This document shows positions 31,742 through 47,314 of a DNA stretch of 64,000 bases, in pieces. The position numbers and the translations under genes are program-made. The notes below the pieces were generated by a model. The model searched no databases. It was not told the DNA's origin and saw nothing but the letters and a program-made list of their open reading frames with translations. Where the stretch lies: positions 3,547,992 to 3,611,991 of the forward strand of contig NZ_CP101322.1 of the NCBI RefSeq assembly GCF_024300625.1. The letters run 5' to 3'. Source of the stretch: Halovivax gelatinilyticus (GTDB lineage Archaea; Halobacteriota; Halobacteria; Halobacteriales; Natrialbaceae). Each line of letters begins with the position of its first letter. Position 1 is the first letter of the stretch.

Positions 31742-32935
31742 TCAGTCACCGGCCAGCGATTCCTGGCTTGCGGCGCAGTTGTTCGGGCCGAGTTCGAGTT
31801 CGAAGGCCTCCTCGTCGTCGGCCTCGCGCTGGCCGAGGTTCGTCGCGATGATATCCTCGTAATTGGCCGGCCGAGGGGGCATGTTCGAGAGGATCAGGTC
31901 GACGAACTCGTCTTCGTCCATCGTGAGCGCCTCCATCGTGTCGACGAGCTGGCCGATCGGTGCCGTGTAGGTACCGTCATCGGCGGGTTCTGCGGCGTCG
32001 CTGTAGTGAGCACCGCCGATCAGCGTGTCCTCAGGGAGCGACAGCACCCGCTCCTGGAGCGACTCGTAGAGCTGTGCGGCGGCCTCCGGTGCGCCGTCGT
32101 CGCCCTCTTCGAGATCGGGTCGGGCGACGCTCTCGACGAATAAGCCGTCGCCGGTCGCGAGCAGCCCGCCGTCGACGAGGTACGATGTCATCCCGGAGGT
32201 GTGTCCGGGCGTGTAGACGGTCTCGATCGTCGCGTCGCCGACGGTGAACTCGTCGCCATCGTCTGCCACCGTCAGCTCGTCTGCGTACGTGACTCCGCGG
32301 TCGACCGACGCGTCGGGGATGACGCCCTCGACACCGCGTTCGGCGAGCGTGCGAACGCCCGAGAGGTGGTCCGCGTGAATGTGGGTGTCGATCGCGTACG
32401 TCAGGTCGACGCCGAGTTCGTCTGCGTCAGCGAGGTACCGATCGGTGAACGCCCGTAGCGGATCGACAATCGCGGCCTCGTCGCCGTCGACGAGGAGGTA
32501 GCCGAGGCAGCCGCTAGATGGGCGCTGGTACTGGTAGAGTGTCCCCGACCCCTCGTACTGAGAGACCTCGACGCGCTCGTAGATGCGCGCCCAGCCGTTC
32601 ATTCCGTCTTCGAGGTGATCGACGTCGTAGCCGAGTTCTTTGAGCGTTCCAGCGACGAATTCGCTGGCTCCGCCCTTCGCACAGAGAACCGTTATTTGGT
32701 CGTCGTCCGGAATCTGTGCAAGAATGTCTTCGTCGAGATCCTCGTCGAGGAATTCGAAGTACGGAACGTTGATCGTGGAGACGTTCTCGCCGTCGATCCG
32801 CCACTCTTCGAAGTCCGATTGCATTCGAGCGTCGAGAATCGTTACGTCCTCACCCGCGTCGATTCGGGCTTTCAGTTCGTCGGGGGCGATCGATTCGACC
32901 GCAACGTCTGGTGTTGGAAAGTCCATGTCTTCCAT
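31742..32935 (-). CDS. rhodanese-MBL-fold fusion, persulfide dioxygenase-like, 397 aa
   Basis: The rhodanese domain (about 1-125) has catalytic-loop cysteine TVLCAKGGASE. The MBL domain follows with THIHADHLSG, VYTPGHTSGM and ATGDGLFVESVARPDL. The protein ends with LELGPNNCAASQESLAGD, sharing GPNNCAA with the enzyme at 10653-11792. ATG 32935 has GAGGTG six bases before it; a second ATG lies at 32926. It heads an operon with the two YeeE/YedE halves, so imported sulfane sulfur can be oxidised directly. The reaction is inferred from ETHE1-type relatives. Confidence 0.87.
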   Translation of the reverse strand: MEDMDFPTPDVAVESIAPDELKARIDAGEDVTILDARMQSDFEEWRIDGENVSTINVPYFEFLDEDLDEDILAQIPDDDQITVLCAKGGASEFVAGTLKELGYDVDHLEDGMNGWARIYERVEVSQYEGSGTLYQYQRPSSGCLGYLLVDGDEAAIVDPLRAFTDRYLADADELGVDLTYAIDTHIHADHLSGVRTLAERGVEGVIPDASVDRGVTYADELTVADDGDEFTVGDATIETVYTPGHTSGMTSYLVDGGLLATGDGLFVESVARPDLEEGDDGAPEAAAQLYESLQERVLSLPEDTLIGGAHYSDAAEPADDGTYTAPIGQLVDTMEALTMDEDEFVDLILSNMPPRPANYEDIIATNLGQREADDEEAFELELGPNNCAASQESLAGD

Positions 32936-33187
32936 GTTGTACACCTCACCGTACCGGGCCGGACCACATAAGAGTTTTCATAGAATTTCCCCTACTGTGC
33001 AATACTACTGAGCCCTCGATGATGATAGACCGGCTCTAAACGCACGTTAGATGCAATAAGATGAATCCTCCCACATAATTTGATACCCTCAATAGTGCGG
33101 TTGTCCACTACACGCCCAATAATCGATACGCTTTTATGGCCCGGTACGATATTGTGTGATAGCTCCAATACAGAGCATCGATACAAC
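32936..33187. promoter_or_regulatory. divergent promoter with shared 14-mer at 32994-33007
   Basis: Read toward the rhodanese-MBL gene, 33007-32994 is TAGTATTGCACAGT, identical to 35702-35715. A TATA-like TTCTATGAAAA lies at 32987-32977. Toward tusA, TTTTATGG (33132-33139) may be TATA, and ATATTGTG (33149-33156) is a half of the palindrome at 10635. The region is AT-rich and has no gene. Confidence 0.6.
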
Positions 33188-33433
33188 ATGAGTTCACAAT
33201 ACGACGTAACCGAGACGCTAGACGTGAAAGGACTGTCCTGCCCGATGCCGATCGTGAAGACGAAGGGCGCGGTCGACGACCTCGAAGACGGAGACGTACT
33301 CGAAGTCATCTCGACCGACTCCGGTAGCATGAGCGATATCAAAGGCTGGGCCGAGGGAACCGACGGCGTCGCCTTGCTCGATCAGACCGAAGACGACGAC
33401 CTGTACGTCCACTACGTCGAGAAAACCGCGTAA
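33188..33433 (+). CDS. tusA: TusA-family sulfurtransferase, 81 aa
   Basis: This small soluble protein has the family signature LSCPMPIVKTKGAV (CPxP with Cys at about residue 18), the cysteine that carries persulfide sulfur between partners. Size and the two-alpha, four-beta pattern fit TusA. It is followed 1 nt later by a DsrE2-like gene, the classic TusA-DsrE sulfur relay pair. Divergent from the rhodanese-MBL-YeeE operon, it likely takes sulfur from that system to biosynthesis or oxidation (inference). Confidence 0.92.
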   Translation: MSSQYDVTETLDVKGLSCPMPIVKTKGAVDDLEDGDVLEVISTDSGSMSDIKGWAEGTDGVALLDQTEDDDLYVHYVEKTA

Positions 33434-33434
33434 G

Positions 33435-34016
33435 ATGAGTACCGAAAATACGACACCCACCGTCGACGACGGTCAGTTCGATGGCGAAGCAATCCAGGCG
33501 TTGCGCGACCGCGTCGCTGAACTGGAAGCGTCCATCGAGGCTACCGACACCGACGACGGGAAGAAGATGACGATCATCGCCACGCAGGGGACGTTCGACA
33601 TGGCCTACCCGCCGCTCATCCTCGCGAGTACGGCCGCAGCCTTCGACTGGGACGTCGTTGTCTTTCACACGTTCTGGGGACTCGACATCCTCCACGAGGA
33701 GAACTCGAAGAACCTCAAGCTCTCTGCGGTCGGTAACCCGAACATGCCGATGCCGAACGCTCTCGCAGCGCTCCCCGGAATGGACGCCATGGCGACGCGA
33801 ATGATGCGAAAGAAAATCGACGAAAACGGCACCGCCACCATCGAAGAGTTGATCGATCTCTCGCTCGAGACCGGCGTCGACCTGCAGGCCTGTCAGATGA
33901 CGATCGAGTTGATGGACTACGACGAGGACGACTTCTACGACGGCGTGACGACCGGCGTCGGCGCGGCCACCGCCCTTCAGCACATGGCCGAATCCGACGT
34001 TCAGTTGCTGGTCTGA
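33435..34016 (+). CDS. DsrE2-like (DsrE/DsrF/DrsH-like) sulfur-relay protein, 193 aa
   Basis: After an N-terminal helix (AIQALRDRVAELEASIEAT) the DsrE-like fold starts at KKMTIIATQGTFDMAYP. A hydrophobic segment (LILASTAAAFDWDVVVFHT) may touch the membrane, as in DsrE2 proteins. The conserved cysteine is in GVDLQACQMTIELM (about residue 155). The neighbour tusA is 1 nt upstream, so the two act in one persulfide relay. Confidence 0.88.
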   Translation: MSTENTTPTVDDGQFDGEAIQALRDRVAELEASIEATDTDDGKKMTIIATQGTFDMAYPPLILASTAAAFDWDVVVFHTFWGLDILHEENSKNLKLSAVGNPNMPMPNALAALPGMDAMATRMMRKKIDENGTATIEELIDLSLETGVDLQACQMTIELMDYDEDDFYDGVTTGVGAATALQHMAESDVQLLV

Positions 34017-38279: not shown

Positions 38280-38460
38280 TGACGCACCACCTCACGACGT
38301 TCCTCGACCGCGTGATCGCGGATGCGGCCGGGAGCTTCGTCCGGTCGAGTAACGTGGTCACGACCGTTCCGAGAGATACACGCACGACCGTCATCGACGG
38401 TGGCATCGACGATTCCTCGTCGCTTTCGACGGTCACACCAGATCAACTTTGTCGCTTACG

Positions 38461-40410
38461 GTGCTAGGGTTGCGTGTGAACCAACGGCTTTGGGTCTGGA
38501 TTCTCGTGCTGGCGTTGGCCGTCTCTCTGGTCGGGATTGGCCTTCTCTTCACGGTCGAAACCGGATCCACCGAACCGGAACCGGTCGAGTTCGACGACAC
38601 CGTCACCGTCGGCCTGACCCTCGAGTCTCAGTTCGCACTGCTCGACAGACCGGAGGTGTCGCTCCCGCGCGTTCAGACGTTCTACTCTCAGTACGAGTAC
38701 GTCGTTGGCTACTACGGCGTGGACACCTACCTCGCGAACCAGGGACAGCCCGGCCATCAACAGCGGTTCGGGTACACACGCGCGAGCTACGTCACCGATT
38801 ACGCGGACACCTCGGTCGAGTTGTCCACTGAGGGGTACCCGATCGTCGAACGCGACCCCGACTGGATTCCCGCCGAGTCGGCGTGGTACGTCGTCGGAAG
38901 CGAAGCCCGATCTCCCGCCGGCGAAACGATTCCATCGTTCGGTGACCGGGAGAGCGCAGCGGCGTTCGCAGAGCGGTACGGCGGGACCGTCGAATCCTGG
39001 GAGGCGCTGACCGATCGGTCCTTCGAGCGCGACGACGCCGACGATGTCCGCGAGCGCGTCGACGGACAGGTAGCGGACGCCGAGGCGGTCGTCGCCGGCG
39101 CCAGCGCGCACGGAGACAGGCCAGCGTCGGTGGTCGTGGGCGAGGACGTTCCCACCGTTCAGGAGGGAATCGACGCGGCCCCGGCGAACACGACCGTCGT
39201 CGTTACCGACGGGACCTACGAGGAGACCGTTGAGATCGATCGGCCGATCACCCTGGCCGGCGAGGGTGAGGCGACGATTCGCGGGAACGAGAACGGATCG
39301 GTCGTGACGGTCACCCACCCGGACGTCGGCGTACGCAACCTCACCGTCGCCGGAAGCGGACTCAACGCGACCCAAGCCGACACGCTCCCGGGTCCGGAGG
39401 GAGATCACCCTGACGATGGGTTCCAGGTTAACTACGGCGGTGCAGACGCCGGGATCAGCGCTCACGTCGCCGACGGCGTCTCGATCGTCGACGTTTCGAT
39501 CGACCTGCGAGCGAACGGGATCGCCCTCCGAGAGAGCCCCGGCGCTGTCGTTAGAAACGTCACCGTCGAAGCGGCCGCAGACGCCGACCGGCCGTACGCT
39601 GGTCTGATGGCGCTCCGATCGCCGGGCGTCGCGGAAAACGTGACGGTAATCGGTGGCCGTGATCCGGTGTTCATGTACCGATCGGACGGATTCGTCCTCC
39701 GGGACAGCGAGGTGCATGGTGGCGTCCTGGGCGTCCACCTCATGCACACGAACGACGCACTCATCGCAGATACCGTCCTTCGAGACGTTTCCAACACCGG
39801 CATTTACGTCATGACCGGCCCGGTGGGGAACGCGATCGTCGGCAACGACGTGAGCGGAAGTGACGTGGGGATCACCATCGGAGGCTCGGAATCGTACGTC
39901 GCGGAGAACGTACTCCAGCACAACAATGTCGGTCTTCGGATCGAAGCTGACGCCTCGCTCTACGAGCGAAACCTCCTCGCCGGAAACGGCGTTGGCGCCC
40001 ACGCGGCGGCCGTCCTCCCCACAAATCGAGTGATAGAAAACGACTTCGTCGCCAACGATCGCCACGCGACGGCCGGTCACGGACCGCTTCGAATCTGGTC
40101 GCACGACGGGGTGGGTAACTACTGGCAAGGAGCTACGACCTTAGCTGATGGGGATCCGCCGGCACGGGCCTACTCGCCGACCGATCCGGTCGGCGCCAGA
40201 ATGCACACGACCGACGGGATCGAAACGCTGGCCCGCGCGCCGGCGGTCGATGCCCTGGCGGGGCTCGAAGCTTCTATTTCGGGGATGCAAACGGCGAGTA
40301 TTGCCGATCTCACACCAACGTGCGAACCGAACAATCCAGCCCTGCTCGCGAGCACTGACTGGACCGACGACGCCTACGCTTGCGACGGAACGACGGTATC
40401 AGAACCATGA
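38461..40410 (+). CDS. nosD: NosD-like periplasmic copper-site assembly protein with NosL-like N-terminus, about 649 aa
   Basis: A membrane anchor (LWVWILVLALAVSLVGIGLL) is followed by a region (about 25-185) containing FYSQYEYVVGYYGVDTYLAN and RFGYTRASYVTDYADTSVEL, as in haloarchaeal NosD proteins fused to a NosL-like part. From about 205 a right-handed beta-helix of parallel repeats begins (VPTVQEGIDAAPANTTVVVT). NosD helps insert the copper-sulfide centre of N2O reductase with NosF and NosY. GTG 38461 is my start choice; a TTG 12 nt earlier is possible. The stop overlaps nosF by ATGA. Confidence 0.87.
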   Translation: MLGLRVNQRLWVWILVLALAVSLVGIGLLFTVETGSTEPEPVEFDDTVTVGLTLESQFALLDRPEVSLPRVQTFYSQYEYVVGYYGVDTYLANQGQPGHQQRFGYTRASYVTDYADTSVELSTEGYPIVERDPDWIPAESAWYVVGSEARSPAGETIPSFGDRESAAAFAERYGGTVESWEALTDRSFERDDADDVRERVDGQVADAEAVVAGASAHGDRPASVVVGEDVPTVQEGIDAAPANTTVVVTDGTYEETVEIDRPITLAGEGEATIRGNENGSVVTVTHPDVGVRNLTVAGSGLNATQADTLPGPEGDHPDDGFQVNYGGADAGISAHVADGVSIVDVSIDLRANGIALRESPGAVVRNVTVEAAADADRPYAGLMALRSPGVAENVTVIGGRDPVFMYRSDGFVLRDSEVHGGVLGVHLMHTNDALIADTVLRDVSNTGIYVMTGPVGNAIVGNDVSGSDVGITIGGSESYVAENVLQHNNVGLRIEADASLYERNLLAGNGVGAHAAAVLPTNRVIENDFVANDRHATAGHGPLRIWSHDGVGNYWQGATTLADGDPPARAYSPTDPVGARMHTTDGIETLARAPAVDALAGLEASISGMQTASIADLTPTCEPNNPALLASTDWTDDAYACDGTTVSEP

Positions 40411-41246
40411 CAAACGAAGATACGACGCGGACGAGTGTCCACGACGCGGACTCACCAGCCAACGATGCCCCGACGTCGGTGGATCGATCCGACGAATCGA
40501 ACGACCCGGATCAGGCGGGTTCGACCGTGCTAACTGCCGAGGCCGTCGCGTTCTCCTACGGCGACGTGCAGGTGCTTCACGACGTTTCATTGACTGCCGA
40601 CGCCGGCGACGTGACGGCGTTGATCGGCCCGAACGGCACGGGAAAGACGACGCTTCTGCGCACCCTCGCCGGGCTCGAAGAGCCGACCGCTGGTGCGGTC
40701 CGGTACCGCGGACCGTCCGTCCCCCGCGAAATCGGCTACCTACCCCAGCGTCCGGCGTTTCGGCCCGGGTTCACCGTCCTCGAGACGCTCGAATTTTACG
40801 CCTCGCTGGTCGGCGAGGGTCGCGCGCAAGCGCGTGATCGGCTCGAACGAGTCGGGCTCGCCGACGCGGCCGGTCGCGATGTCGGCGCGCTCTCCGGCGG
40901 TATGACCCGACTGGTCGGGATCGCACAGGCGACCATCGGCGATCCGCCCGTCGTCGTCCTCGACGAACCCGGCTCTGGTCTCGACCCCGGCATGAGTACC
41001 CGTATTTACGAGGTGGCTCGCGAAATCGCCGCCACGGACACAGCCGTTATACTGACCTCACACGAGATGGGGCTGGTCGAGCGGACGGCCGATCTCGTGT
41101 ACGTTCTCGACGACGGAGGGGTCGCTGCGCGTGGGCACCCCACGGAGCTGCGTGACCGCCTGGGCGTCGACTCGCTCCGAGCGGTATACGAACAGACCGT
41201 CTCGGGCGACCTCTACAGCGTCCGCGTCCAGGGTGAGACGGCATGA
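40407..41246 (+). CDS. nosF: NosF-like ABC ATPase, 279 aa
   Basis: After an acidic N-terminus of about 40 residues the ATPase domain shows Walker A GPNGTGKTTLL, signature ALSGGMTRLVG, Walker B PVVVLDEPGSGLDP and switch SHEMGL. The gene is translationally coupled on both sides (ATGA overlaps with nosD and nosY), the standard DFY arrangement. It powers the NosY membrane component for copper-centre maturation or sulfur export to NosD. No nosZ is seen in the window. Confidence 0.88.
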   Translation: MTNEDTTRTSVHDADSPANDAPTSVDRSDESNDPDQAGSTVLTAEAVAFSYGDVQVLHDVSLTADAGDVTALIGPNGTGKTTLLRTLAGLEEPTAGAVRYRGPSVPREIGYLPQRPAFRPGFTVLETLEFYASLVGEGRAQARDRLERVGLADAAGRDVGALSGGMTRLVGIAQATIGDPPVVVLDEPGSGLDPGMSTRIYEVAREIAATDTAVILTSHEMGLVERTADLVYVLDDGGVAARGHPTELRDRLGVDSLRAVYEQTVSGDLYSVRVQGETA

Positions 41247-42073
41247 CCGGGAAGGCCAGCCCGCCCGGCCCTGCGGAGCGCGTCTGGCGGTTGTTCGGTC
41301 GCGAACTCAGGACGGTGGCTCGAACCCGGACCTACCTCTTCCTGACCGCTGCGCTGGCGGCCATCCTGCTCGGGATCGCGCTCACAGGGAGCGTGACAGC
41401 CGGATACGTCCCGACGGTCGTCGACCTCCTCACGCCGCTGGAACTGCTCGTACCGATCATCGCCGTGGCGTTCGGCTATCGTGCGATCGTCGCCGACGAT
41501 GCCCGCGGAGAACTCGACGTGCTCGCGACGTATCCGGTTTCCGCCAGAGAACACGTTCTGGGCGTCTATATCGGTCGCGCCGTCGGTCTCCTGATCGCGA
41601 TCGTGACCCCGCTCGTCATCGTCGGGGGCGCGGTGGCGTTCCGTCGTGAGGAGCCGGTGGCGATCTACGCGACCACCGCCGGGGCCGATTCGCCGATCCT
41701 GTTCGCCCGGTTCGTCCTCCTGACGATCGCGTTCGCACTCGTCGTTCTGGCGGTGGCGCTCGCGATTTCCGCGCTCGCCGGCGGGATTCGAAGCGGCCTG
41801 GTCCTCGCGATCGTCGCGTTGATCGTCCTGCTCGTCGGACTCGATCTGGCGCTCGTCTTCGGTCTCTCTGCCGGTTACCTTCCCGAGTCGGCGCTGCTCG
41901 AGGCGATCGCGATCAGTCCCCTGAGCGCCTACCGCGGGCTGGTTTTCGAGACGGTGATCACGACGGCCGCCGGATCGGGGCCGGAGACCGCCTCCGTACC
42001 GGCCAGTATCCTCGGTCTCGCCGCCTGGCTGGTTGGGTCACTGGTCGTCGCGGCGTGGGCGCTGCGACGGTGA
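41243..42073 (+). CDS. nosY: NosY-like ABC-2 permease, 276 aa
   Basis: Six spans are present (for example TYLFLTAALAAILLGIAL near residue 30, LLVPIIAVAFGYRAIVADD near 68, RFVLLTIAFALVVLAVAL near 155 and the last GLAAWLVGSLVVAAWAL). The segment DDARGELDVLATYPVSAREH after span 2 is typical of NosY. Its start overlaps nosF by four bases. With NosF and NosD it forms the transporter used for N2O-reductase copper-sulfide cluster biogenesis. Confidence 0.87.
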   Translation: MTGKASPPGPAERVWRLFGRELRTVARTRTYLFLTAALAAILLGIALTGSVTAGYVPTVVDLLTPLELLVPIIAVAFGYRAIVADDARGELDVLATYPVSAREHVLGVYIGRAVGLLIAIVTPLVIVGGAVAFRREEPVAIYATTAGADSPILFARFVLLTIAFALVVLAVALAISALAGGIRSGLVLAIVALIVLLVGLDLALVFGLSAGYLPESALLEAIAISPLSAYRGLVFETVITTAAGSGPETASVPASILGLAAWLVGSLVVAAWALRR

Positions 42074-42117
42074 ATCGTTCGGTGGGCTCGGCGCGAATTC
42101 GGCTAGAGAAGAAGGCC

Positions 42118-42723
42118 CTACCCCATCAACGACTGGAGCAGTTCCGGCGTGATTTCGTCGTGTTCGTAGCGATCGCCGCCGTGTTCGTCCTGAAACGACT
42201 CGGCGTCGTCCGGATCCGAGAAGCCGATCAGGGATCGACCCATCGCCCCGTGGACGTCGCTGTCGACGACCAGGGTCAGTTCCGCCGGATCCGCGAACGT
42301 CTCTGCGTCCAGGTGGCGACTGATCTCGGGTGCGTCGCCGCCGGTGACGACCTCCCAGTCGACGCTCGAGTAGTCCGTCAGGTAGACGACGGTGGGCTCG
42401 GCCTGAGATTCGTGATCGAACGTGAATCCGTAGGTACATCGCGAACTGCAGAACTGCGCCGGGCGGTCTTCGTCGGTTTCGAGGATCGGCTCGGGCTCGT
42501 CGTAGAACGACTGACCGGCCGGTCCGCGATAGTTTCCGATCTCCATCGTACAGTTGTCACAGGCCATTTCCGGTTCGATCGTGATCGGGTCAGAAACGGG
42601 GTCGTCCGAATCGTCCAGACAGCCGGCGACTGCGGCTAGACCCGCAACCGTCACGCCGGTGAGAACTGTCCGTCGAGTGATCGGTCTGGTTGGGTCCGGC
42701 CGCGTTGAATGTGTGTCGTCCAT
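42118..42723 (-). CDS. nosL: NosL copper lipoprotein, 201 aa
   Basis: The N-terminus carries a twin-arginine motif (ITRRTVLTG) and lipobox AVAGCLDD, so it is an exported lipoprotein. The NosL Cu(I) site is MACDNCTMEIGNY (CxxCxM, about residue 54), and a second cysteine pair lies in AQFCSSRCTYGF. NosL is a copper chaperone for N2O reductase. It is convergent with nosDFY, 45 nt after nosY, so it has its own promoter. The NosL-like part of NosD may be a second copy of the function. Confidence 0.92.
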   Translation of the reverse strand: MDDTHSTRPDPTRPITRRTVLTGVTVAGLAAVAGCLDDSDDPVSDPITIEPEMACDNCTMEIGNYRGPAGQSFYDEPEPILETDEDRPAQFCSSRCTYGFTFDHESQAEPTVVYLTDYSSVDWEVVTGGDAPEISRHLDAETFADPAELTLVVDSDVHGAMGRSLIGFSDPDDAESFQDEHGGDRYEHDEITPELLQSLMG

Positions 42724-43294: not shown

Positions 43295-43660
43295 CTAGCC
43301 GATCGTCAACACCCGATCGGCGCTCGTCGTCAGTTCCAGCAGGTCGCTCATCGTCGACATCGGGCAGTACTCTCCTTCCTCCTGGCGCATCTCGAGACAC
43401 GTTCCGCAGGCTTCGAGGTGGCCGTCGACCTCGAGGAACGCTTCGATGCGGTCTCTGACGTCGAACGGGGCGTCGTCGATCGTTTCGACCTCCACGCCTT
43501 CGCCGAGTAAGAAGACCGAAACGTCGTGGCCGGCCTCGCGCGCCGTAATTCCGAGTCTGAACGCGTTCCACGCTCGTTCGGGATCGTTCGTCTCGAGGAC
43601 GATCGTCATCGATTCGAGTGACTCGTCGTCGGGGTCGGTAGCAGATGGCGCATCTGACAT
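43295..43660 (-). CDS. DsrE-family sulfur-relay protein, 121 aa
   Basis: The DsrE/F fold starts at SMTIVLETNDPERAWNAFRL. Conserved cysteines are in HLEACGTCLEMRQEEGEYC (about residue 90), the usual place of the persulfide-carrying cysteine in DsrE-like proteins. ATG 43660 is chosen over an upstream start at 43687, which lies in the promoter. It is a second DsrE protein in the window, distinct from the DsrE2-like one at 33435, and probably cytoplasmic. The partner is not adjacent. Confidence 0.87.
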   Translation of the reverse strand: MSDAPSATDPDDESLESMTIVLETNDPERAWNAFRLGITAREAGHDVSVFLLGEGVEVETIDDAPFDVRDRIEAFLEVDGHLEACGTCLEMRQEEGEYCPMSTMSDLLELTTSADRVLTIG

Positions 43661-43886
43661 AGTATTGTTTAGATACCCCAATACCATAAGAATTCGGGTC
43701 GCGGCCGCAGACCGGCGACGATTAAAAAAAAACGCGATCGCCGAGCCTCAGCACGAGACGCTCCGCTATGTAAAGTCGCCGTATATCGAGGGTGTTCGGC
43801 TCGGAACTCCCAGGATTTGAGAACTAGGGCGAACCCGTACGGGAGAACGGCTACCGCCCTTACGTCCCGACTCGCTCACGTACGCC

Positions 43887-44036
43887 ATGAGTACGATTCA
43901 TCCCGACGACGAGCCGCCGTTCATGCAGCGGCTGTACGACAACGTGTGGTTACTAGCACTGCTAGCCCTGCTGTTCTTCGCCGTCTCGTACGTCGGCTGG
44001 GGGCTACTAGACATCTATACGGTACCCGCACGGTGA
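43887..44036 (+). CDS. small single-span subunit of heme-copper oxidase-type complex, 49 aa
   Basis: From ATG 43887 the protein reads MSTIHPDDEPPFMQRLYDN, then one span (VWLLALLALLFFAVSYVGWG) and a short tail ending at TGA 44034-44036. It starts the operon with the CuA subunit (4 nt downstream) and the heme-copper subunit I. Small one-helix subunits are normal in such complexes. It has no equivalent by sequence in the two ba3 clusters. Confidence 0.8.
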   Translation: MSTIHPDDEPPFMQRLYDNVWLLALLALLFFAVSYVGWGLLDIYTVPAR

Positions 44037-44040
44037 TTCG

Positions 44041-44586
44041 ATGACGTCACCGATCAAGCCGCCGGAAGGCAACTGGTGGAATCAACCGATCAACCGACGC
44101 GAGACGATCTGGCTCGGGCTCGGGACGGCCTGGGCCGTCGTCCTCTTCGGGTGGATGAGCGCGTTCACCCGGATCGGCGATCAGAACCCGATCGGACAGA
44201 GCTACAAAGTCGAGGACGACGAGTACTTCGACACCGTCCAGGCCTACAAGGAAGAAGCCGACGAGAACGAGGACGGCCACCTGATCCCGCCGGGCGACAG
44301 CGTCTACATCAACGCGATGACCTACCAGTGGGACGGCCTCCCGGTGGTCCTCGAAGCGGGCCGAGAGTACGACTTCCACCTGGGCTCGACCGACGTCCAG
44401 CACGGATTCTCGATCCGACCGGAGGATACGCTGAGCAAACAGATCAACCTGCAAGTGATCCCGGGCTACGAGTGGATCGTCCCCATGGAGTTCGACGAAC
44501 CCGGCACCTACCGGGTGCTGTGTAACGAGTTCTGTGGCGACGGCCACGAGTCGATGGCCGGGACGCTCTACGTGGAGGAAGCCTGA
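44041..44586 (+). CDS. CuA subunit (subunit II) of CuA-type NO reductase or oxidase, 181 aa
   Basis: One N-terminal span (ETIWLGLGTAWAVVLFGWMS) anchors a cupredoxin domain outside the membrane. The dinuclear CuA site is complete: a histidine in STDVQHGFSI and the loop LCNEFCGDGHESMAG (Cys, Cys, His, Met). It takes electrons from a cupredoxin or similar donor and passes them to subunit I, encoded 2 nt downstream. Single-span topology differs from the two-span subunit II of A-type oxidases and is like ba3 and CuA-type NO reductases. Confidence 0.88.
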   Translation: MTSPIKPPEGNWWNQPINRRETIWLGLGTAWAVVLFGWMSAFTRIGDQNPIGQSYKVEDDEYFDTVQAYKEEADENEDGHLIPPGDSVYINAMTYQWDGLPVVLEAGREYDFHLGSTDVQHGFSIRPEDTLSKQINLQVIPGYEWIVPMEFDEPGTYRVLCNEFCGDGHESMAGTLYVEEA

Positions 44587-44588
44587 CC

Positions 44589-46376
44589 ATGGCCCACAGG
44601 TTCGACGTCCTCGGACTGTTCGACAACGAGTACGACGAGGACGGCTTTCGAATGTGCGGAATCACCGGGCTGAACGTCCACCGGTCGGTCGAAAACCACG
44701 TCAAGCTCTTCGGCCTGACGGCGCTCGTCTACCTGATCATCGGCGGGATCTTCGCGATCACGGTCGCGACGACCCGATGGGAGGCGATCGGTCTCCTCGA
44801 TGCCACCGATTACTACATCCACCTCAGCATGCACGCCTGGAGCATGCTGCTCTTCTGGATCGTCTTCATGGAGGTCGGCATCCTCTACGTCGGCGGTCCG
44901 ATGGTCCTCGGCAGGCGGCTGCCGTTGACGAAATTCGCGAAGCTCGGCTACCTCACGATGGTCGCCGGGACGATCACCGTCTACTACTCGATATGGACCA
45001 CGAGCGCGCCCGACCAGGCGCCGCTTCTGACCGCCTACATTCCGCTTCCATCTGCGCCGTTGTTCTACGGGGGCGCGTTGCTCTTCGTTCTCGGGGTCGT
45101 CGTCGCCTCCCTGCCGTTCTTCGTCGCGCTCTGGAACGAAAAGCGAGAGAACAAAGGTGAGAGCCTTCCGCTCGTCACCTTCGGTGCGTTCATCACGAGC
45201 ATCATCGCCGTCGAAGCGCTGCTCGGCGGCGTCGTCGCCTTCGCCGGCGGGTTACTCTGGCGCCTGGAAATCCTGCAGTTCGACCCCGCCGCCTACCGGA
45301 TGTGGTTCTGGATCGTCGGTCACGGTACCCAGCAGATCAATCTCGTGGCGATGATCGTCGTCTGGTACTTCCTCACCCACGTCGTCGGTGGGGCGGAAGT
45401 CGTCAGCGAGAAGGTCTCGCGAACGGCGTTCGTCCTCTATCTCTTCTTCATCAACATGGGCGCGGCCCACCACCTGCTGGTCGACCCCGGCATCTCGACC
45501 GGCTGGCGGATCTGGAACACCTCCTACGCGTTCTACGGGGCGACGCTCGCGAGCCTCATTCACGCCTTCGCCATCCCGGCCGGCATCGAAGCCGGTCGGC
45601 GAAAACGCGGCAAGGGCGGCGGCCTCTTCGGCTGGCTCACCTCCGCGCCGTGGCGAAACCCGGCGTTTTCCGCGCCGATCCTGGCGATCATCCTGTTCGG
45701 ATTCCTCGGCGGCATTACGGGCGTGTTGATGGGCCAGCTCCAGCTCAACATGGCGTGGCACAACACGTTCGCGACCGTCGGGCACTTCCACAGCACCGTC
45801 GTCCTCGGCACGACGATCACGTTCATGGGCCTGATCTACTTCTTGATCCGGACCATGTTCATGCGCCAGTTCATCTCGACGAAGCTGGCCTCGGCCCAGC
45901 CGTTCCTCTACGGCGGCGCCATGGGCATCACGGCGCTGATGATGATGTACGTCGGCATCCTCTACGGCGTTCCGCGCCGGACGCCGGAAGTCGTCGAGAA
46001 CATCCCGCGGGCGGGCTACGAGTTCAGCCTCGACGCCGCCACTCCGCTGTTCGCGGTCTTTGGCATCTTCGCGGTCATCGCGATCATCGGCGGGGCGCTG
46101 TTCATCGCGCTCGCCGTCCTCTCCGTCCTGTTCGGAGAGCGCATCGAACCGGGCGGGGACTGGGACCTCGTCGCAGACGGCGGTACGAAGTCGGCGGGAA
46201 CGAAGATCGCCCAGTCTCGCGAGAGTCTGGAGATGGCCGACGATCCGGACGATCCGGTCCACGCCTACGAGATGCGCGGGACGTTCGTGCTCTGTCTGAT
46301 CTTCCTGACCGCGTTCGTCATCACGTACATCCTGAACTGGTATCTGATCACCCAGCTCTGGTCCATCGGGGCCTGA
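44589..46376 (+). CDS. heme-copper subunit I without the active-site tyrosine, probable CuA-type (eNOR-like) nitric oxide reductase, 595 aa
   Basis: The protein has 13 or so spans and all heme and metal histidines: low-spin heme ligands in IHLSMHAW (His82) and GHFHSTVVLG (His401), high-spin heme ligand His399, and metal ligands His294/His295 (AAHHLLVDPG) and His245. However, the helix VI motif is WIVGHGTQQINLVAM, where O2 reductases have HP-x-x-Y with a His-Tyr cross-link; here glutamines 248-249 occupy that zone. Loss of this Tyr is typical of NO reductases, and a CuA partner plus glutamine suggests the eNOR type (inference). Neighbouring nos genes support a denitrification role. Confidence 0.8.
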   Translation: MAHRFDVLGLFDNEYDEDGFRMCGITGLNVHRSVENHVKLFGLTALVYLIIGGIFAITVATTRWEAIGLLDATDYYIHLSMHAWSMLLFWIVFMEVGILYVGGPMVLGRRLPLTKFAKLGYLTMVAGTITVYYSIWTTSAPDQAPLLTAYIPLPSAPLFYGGALLFVLGVVVASLPFFVALWNEKRENKGESLPLVTFGAFITSIIAVEALLGGVVAFAGGLLWRLEILQFDPAAYRMWFWIVGHGTQQINLVAMIVVWYFLTHVVGGAEVVSEKVSRTAFVLYLFFINMGAAHHLLVDPGISTGWRIWNTSYAFYGATLASLIHAFAIPAGIEAGRRKRGKGGGLFGWLTSAPWRNPAFSAPILAIILFGFLGGITGVLMGQLQLNMAWHNTFATVGHFHSTVVLGTTITFMGLIYFLIRTMFMRQFISTKLASAQPFLYGGAMGITALMMMYVGILYGVPRRTPEVVENIPRAGYEFSLDAATPLFAVFGIFAVIAIIGGALFIALAVLSVLFGERIEPGGDWDLVADGGTKSAGTKIAQSRESLEMADDPDDPVHAYEMRGTFVLCLIFLTAFVITYILNWYLITQLWSIGA

Positions 46377-46621
46377 GCGGGCGATCGAATTCTCCTCGAT
46401 TACGACCGCACCGGCGAGAGACCGACGCACGTTCGACGACCGTTCTACCGTCGAACCAGTTCGGGAAACGACCCACCGTAGTGGACCCCGTACGACCGAG
46501 TGAAACCGGAAGACGGCCGTCGGGTACGTGGGACGCCACGAACGACTCGAATGATCACGAGCACAGAACCCGAGATTCGAGCGTGAACGATCATCCATCC
46601 CGACGGGAACCAAACAAATCT

Positions 46622-47314
46622 ATGGCAAATTCAACGACCGCGAACCGATCGGCGCCACGACGTATCGTCAGGCGGGCGTGGAACGACCTGCTCAGCATCT
46701 ACTACGCGAACACGCCGATCTGGCGCTGGTTCAAGAGCGGCGGCCTCCTCGTGTTCGGCTTCTTCTGCTGGTCAGCAGCCTCCTTGCTCCTCTCGTACCG
46801 ACCGGACTGGACGTTCCTTCACTACGTGATGGCGTACGGGTTCGCCCTGATCGTCTGGGGGCCGCTCACGCACTTCGTGATCGTTCCCCTGGCAATTCGC
46901 CTTCGACGGACGGCCGAACATCCGGCCGCCCGGTTCTTCGCTCGAAACGTCTCGAAGATCAACCTCTCCGTGTTCGTCGTCATCGTCATCGTCCTGGCGG
47001 TGGTGCAATTTTCGCCCATGATGCTCGACTTCGGCGGCGCGTTCGAGAGCGATTCCGGCTCGGAGGTTACGGCGGACCTCGAGTGCGAGCAAACGGACGA
47101 CCTGATCACCTGTCAGTTGACGAGTACCGAGGGCGTCGATCGAATCGAGGTTACCTCGGGCGACCGCGAAGTGGCCATCGTCGATGATCCAGGAGGGCCC
47201 TTCGAGATCCGGGTCGATGCTCTCGAAGAAGTCGTCGGACAGAAACAGTACTCGGTGGCGCTGTACGACGAAGATGGCAACCGAGTCGGTGTCTTCCGAC
47301 GAAGCGCACGATAA
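46622..47314 (+). CDS. putative third subunit or assembly protein of the eNOR-like complex, 230 aa
   Basis: Three spans (near residues 38-58, 65-90 and 112-135) are followed by an extracytoplasmic domain of about 95 residues with a cysteine pair in ADLECEQTDDLITCQL, likely a disulfide, and a beta-sandwich look (VDRIEVTSGDREVAIV). The gene lies 245 nt after subunit I on the same strand, with no gene between. Its role is inferred only from position. No family is recognised. Confidence 0.68.
   Translation: MANSTTANRSAPRRIVRRAWNDLLSIYYANTPIWRWFKSGGLLVFGFFCWSAASLLLSYRPDWTFLHYVMAYGFALIVWGPLTHFVIVPLAIRLRRTAEHPAARFFARNVSKINLSVFVVIVIVLAVVQFSPMMLDFGGAFESDSGSEVTADLECEQTDDLITCQLTSTEGVDRIEVTSGDREVAIVDDPGGPFEIRVDALEEVVGQKQYSVALYDEDGNRVGVFRRSAR

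Follow-up and report, generated by a model that had tools for sequence, protein, structure and literature searches.

The 64,000-nucleotide stretch of the Halovivax gelatinilyticus genome analysed here (the window) carries four genes on the forward strand between positions 43887 and 47314. The first (43887..44036) encodes a 49-aa protein with a single transmembrane (TM) helix (P0001), followed by the genes for subunit II, a CuA cupredoxin with the complete CuA motif CNEFCGDGHESM (44041..44586), and, directly downstream of it, subunit I, the predicted catalytic haem-copper subunit (44589..46376). The fourth gene (46622..47314) encodes a 230-aa protein with four TM helices and a C-terminal beta-sandwich that contains two invariant Cys residues (P0002). 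A degenerate denitrification box, CGAACCCGTACG, is located on the same strand at 43830..43841, 57 nt ahead of the start codon of the first gene.

Subunit I matches COX1 (PF00115 in Pfam, E=1.1e-57) and retains all haem and CuB ligands, i.e. H82, H245, H294, H295, H399 and H401. The first-pass annotation of this DNA gave the same ORF positions and the same complete set of histidines, and it reported that the helix VI Tyr is absent and that two Gln stand in its place, which the helix VI alignment bears out. Specifically, subunit I reads GHGTQQIN where subunits I of the two ba3 oxidases in the window read GHPVVYFW and GHAFVYFW, and Q249 is H245+4, exactly the position of the cofactor Tyr in O2 reductases. 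Gln248 and Gln249 are invariant in 114 of 114 aligned eNOR subunit I sequences, a set of which part was retrieved with a pattern containing QQ and to which a whole-protein search contributed 53 haloarchaeal genomes; given this invariance, the Gln at the Tyr position is not there by chance. H82, E95, H245, N251, Y260, Y284, H294, H295, S322, H325 and H399 are likewise invariant over the 114 sequences. In two of them (L040, from a Thermus plasmid, and L140, from a Chitinophagaceae MAG) GHFK replaces GHFH in helix X, which changes the low-spin haem ligand His401 to Lys.

A Tyr supplied from another helix, which the first-pass annotation had named as a finding that would overturn its reading, was looked for in helix VII. 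The alternative Tyr position of the C family, H294-6 (I288), is occupied by Ile or Leu across the 114 aligned sequences, and the invariant Y284 sits ten residues away, so that a Tyr of the C-family type is excluded. The cross-linked Tyr in helix VI or VII that characterises A, B and C oxygen reductases is thus lacking, with Q249 at the one position and Ile or Leu at the other. Together with the replacement of Tyr by Gln without exception, the residues at H294-6 argue against the enzyme being a B-family O2 reductase without Tyr, or one that reduces chiefly O2 and has a side activity on NO, in micro-oxic respiration; we consider this improbable, although the conserved CuA site and metal ligands are in its favour.

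The same alternative draws support from the phylogeny. The tree was built with references for the A, B and C families and for cNOR and qNOR, leaving aside sNOR, gNOR, bNOR, nNOR and any named biochemically verified eNOR. In it the window subunit I falls inside a 39-row eNOR clade (SH-aLRT 100) that is sister to the B-family (ba3) oxidases and outside the O2-reductase families; cNOR and qNOR are distant. The ba3 oxidases, two of which are encoded in the window, share with this operon a CuA subunit II, the metal ligands and, in some relatives, a small single-TM ORF upstream. They differ in that they keep GHxxxY, form a separate clade, and have small ORFs that lack the P-x2-Q...Y-x2-W-G pattern.

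The eNOR family reportedly goes back to Hemp and Gennis in 2008; it is already known, and the window operon is an additional member. Close relatives of subunit I (60-86% identity) were identified by whole-protein search in 53 of 292 haloarchaeal genomes, and a genome-wide scan gave more than 500 relatives, those kept coming from haloarchaea, Rhodothermota and many bacterial phyla. The residue at the Tyr position serves as a marker, being Gln in eNOR, Asn in sNOR and CuANOR (bNOR), Asp in gNOR and Glu in cNOR/qNOR (PMC8756737, Table A4). All members aligned here have Gln, not the Asn of bNOR/sNOR, which resemble them as CuA-type NORs with B-family kinship, nor the Asp of gNOR. The features of cNOR/qNOR, i.e. 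an active-site Glu, membership of their clade and a NorC or NorC-like domain instead of CuA, are also missing, as judged from the distance in the tree and the absence of PF22085 from the genome. With published eNORs the operon shares the Gln, the CuA cupredoxin subunit II directly upstream, the kinship with the B family and the occurrence in Halobacteria; eNOR has been reported in Natronomonas and other Halobacteria, with many members misannotated as cytochrome oxidases (PMC8756737). PMC11388526 cites eNOR as biochemically characterised (Murali et al. 2024) and related to B-family oxidases.

The genome encodes four COX1 proteins in all. A nirK gene (335 bits) lies 7 kb beyond the window, at a distance of 51 kb on the upstream side of the operon. 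The genome was found to lack qNOR (PF22085), cNOR and narG as well as nosZ (clades I, II and III), and the window eNOR is the only haem-copper NOR candidate predicted there. In the haloarchaeal sample of 292, 50 of the 53 genomes with eNOR carry nirK vs 106 of the 239 without (p=1.5e-12), and where qNOR is missing the figures are 18/19 and 19/111, respectively. Shared ancestry alone is not sufficient to account for this association, since the odds ratio is 28 (p=3e-8) after stratification by genus; within one genus all nine eNOR genomes are nirK-positive and all seven others nirK-negative. Moreover, nirK is at most about 10 kb from eNOR in 9 of 30 loci. The strong association, strongest where qNOR is absent, counts against a function in O2 reduction. 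Counting against the eNOR reading are three eNOR genomes without a strong nirK match and the presence of two ba3 oxidases near the operon. Separately, 19 nirK-positive genomes in the sample have neither qNOR nor eNOR, and these may have another NO sink.

In Haloferax mediterranei the genes nar, nirK, nor and nos are reported to be preceded by the motif CGAAYATDKTYG (PMC11218638). With at most two mismatches allowed, this motif lies 50-70 nt ahead of the small ORF in 23 of 31 eNOR operons vs 11% of the other ORFs in the same loci (binomial 3e-16, which overstates the significance as the loci are related). The box CGAACCCGTACG in the window has the same position as the CGAACATGTGCG-like boxes of its relatives and retains the half-sites CGAA and TNCG; it has three mismatches to the published motif, and this degeneracy counts against the eNOR reading. 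The nirK gene of the same genome has CGAACAGCTTCG at -81. A denitrification box is a further point against an O2 reductase.

On the basis of the Gln marker, the tree placement and the gene content (nirK present, no other haem-copper NOR), we conclude that the operon very probably encodes an eNOR-type nitric oxide reductase, as the first-pass annotation had proposed, with a probability of about 0.86; the assignment is made from sequence comparison, and the catalytic activity is predicted. We also considered another nitrogen oxide reaction, e.g. the dismutation of NO into N2 and O2, or NO detoxification alone without energy conservation. A genome without nosZ or narG makes detoxification plausible, and NO dismutases belong, as divergent members, to the NOR group of haem-copper proteins. 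However, known NO dismutases are derived from qNOR, the window subunit I is a B-family relative with CuA, and a dismutase needs no electron-receiving CuA domain; we regard this explanation as very improbable.

Returning to the putative eNOR, all 113 relatives examined retain the CxxxCxxxHxxM motif of subunit II. A homologue of the 49-aa ORF occupies the same place, just upstream of the subunit II gene, at 100 of 113 eNOR loci from archaea and bacteria. In this protein family W38 is invariant, and Gln14 and Gly39 are nearly so. Judged by its conservation, the 49-aa product is a core small subunit of eNOR, presumably as a physical part of the enzyme. It had been described as an unusual small subunit; the second half of this description is retained, the first is replaced by 'conserved', and the homologues extend to bacteria.

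The 230-aa protein, previously noted as a possible third subunit of unknown family, can be placed more closely. It is encoded in 52 of the 53 haloarchaeal eNOR genomes, and an intact copy was found in no other genome of the 292-genome sample; the sole exception among the eNOR genomes is G034, where the eNOR match is truncated, probably by a contig end, and two further genomes carry only remnant-like fragments. The gene is near eNOR in 30 of 30 loci inspected and also adjoins eNOR in Salinivenus and Rhodothermus MAGs. Judging from this distribution it is confined to the eNORs of haloarchaea and Rhodothermota, and we infer that the protein is an accessory subunit or assembly factor in these groups. 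W20, H84, C155 and C164 do not vary among 58 sequences, and the structure model (mean pLDDT 85) combines four helices with a sandwich domain of seven strands. As the earlier wording implied, no family was found: there was no match in Pfam, NCBIfam or plasmids, a search of PDB sequences gave one chance match (E 0.38), and the fold search returned Ig/FnIII-like domains alone, all weak and none better than E 1.1e-3. One genome of the same genus (G208) has two eNOR cassettes (L048 and L049), each with its own 230-aa gene. The Rhodothermota cassettes L100, L105 and L106, with the 230-aa gene adjacent, nest within the haloarchaeal eNOR clade, which suggests that the whole cassette was transferred from archaea to bacteria (Rhodothermota).

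The genes next to the operon were also compared among loci. Recurrent neighbours of eNOR are HTH_10 regulators, CtaA/CtaB-type haem synthases and copper ATPases. Genes for assembly factors (cyoE/CtaA-type and SCO) are also often found nearby, which is again compatible with an O2 reductase. The nosDFYL genes are directly upstream of the operon, as the first-pass annotation stated, but its use of them as a supporting argument was discarded, since the linkage is not conserved in relatives and the genome lacks nosZ. The window region 38449-42723 encodes NosL, a NosL-NosD fusion and an ABC ATPase and permease. The genome contains no nosZ of clades I, II or III, and these proteins possibly deliver copper to CuA/CuB enzymes. 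Rhodanese-like, TusA-like (by eye from the translations) and DsrE-like proteins are encoded at 31742-34016 and 43295-43687, a possible sulfur-transfer set near respiratory genes. At the Thermus plasmid locus eNOR has an Rrf2 regulator and a DUF542 protein as neighbours. We take both to be linked to NO stress and count them in favour of the eNOR reading; they do not recur and were rejected as general bacterial neighbours. A fusion protein with cytochrome b, 4Fe-4S and FlpD-like parts (e.g. L041 7405-8985; L110-L159) is encoded within a few kb of eNOR in 44 of 52 bacterial loci and is perhaps a dedicated electron-supply module.

In the mechanism that we propose a soluble copper protein, probably a halocyanin, would donate electrons to CuA of subunit II. 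From there, following the conserved ligands, electrons would pass to the low-spin haem (H82/H401) and on to the high-spin haem (H399) and CuB (H245/H294/H295), where two NO would be converted to N2O. The active site would be tuned to NO because Gln249 stands for the cofactor Tyr that is needed in O2 splitting. Protons would probably be taken up from the cytoplasm through a modified B-family (K-type) path with S322, Y260 and H325, and turnover may in that case conserve energy. One proton channel is expected of an eNOR. These three residues are invariant in the 114 sequences and are equated with the K-type path by sequence position; presumably they correspond to the path positions in ba3, with H325 at ba3 Thr312. 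In the window genome, NO produced by NirK would be consumed by eNOR and given off as N2O.

A survey of haloarchaeal denitrification stated that qNOR is the only NOR class in these organisms (PMC8400030). Haloarchaeal qNOR (NorZ) has the same proposed role, the NO to N2O step in nirK-positive haloarchaea, but it is a single fused quinol enzyme of a distant clade. Our data place eNOR in 18% of the haloarchaeal genomes sampled (53/292), and in 18 nirK-positive genomes, including that of the window, eNOR was the only NOR found; such genomes would be scored as being without the NO step, though they probably emit N2O. A published description of eNOR comprises two subunits, and relative to it the present analysis adds the weight of the family in haloarchaea, a small subunit conserved throughout the family, a fourth cassette gene specific to haloarchaea and Rhodothermota, and a promoter box. 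Whether the haloarchaeal enzyme is a four-component complex, with the 49-aa subunit and an obligate clade-specific beta-sandwich membrane protein, regulated through the denitrification box and encoded by a cassette passed between haloarchaea and Rhodothermota, is in our view evenly balanced. If this is so, haloarchaea would have in eNOR a second NOR system, contrary to the published qNOR-only statement. For structural and genetic work the conserved small subunit and the cassette gene both offer concrete targets.
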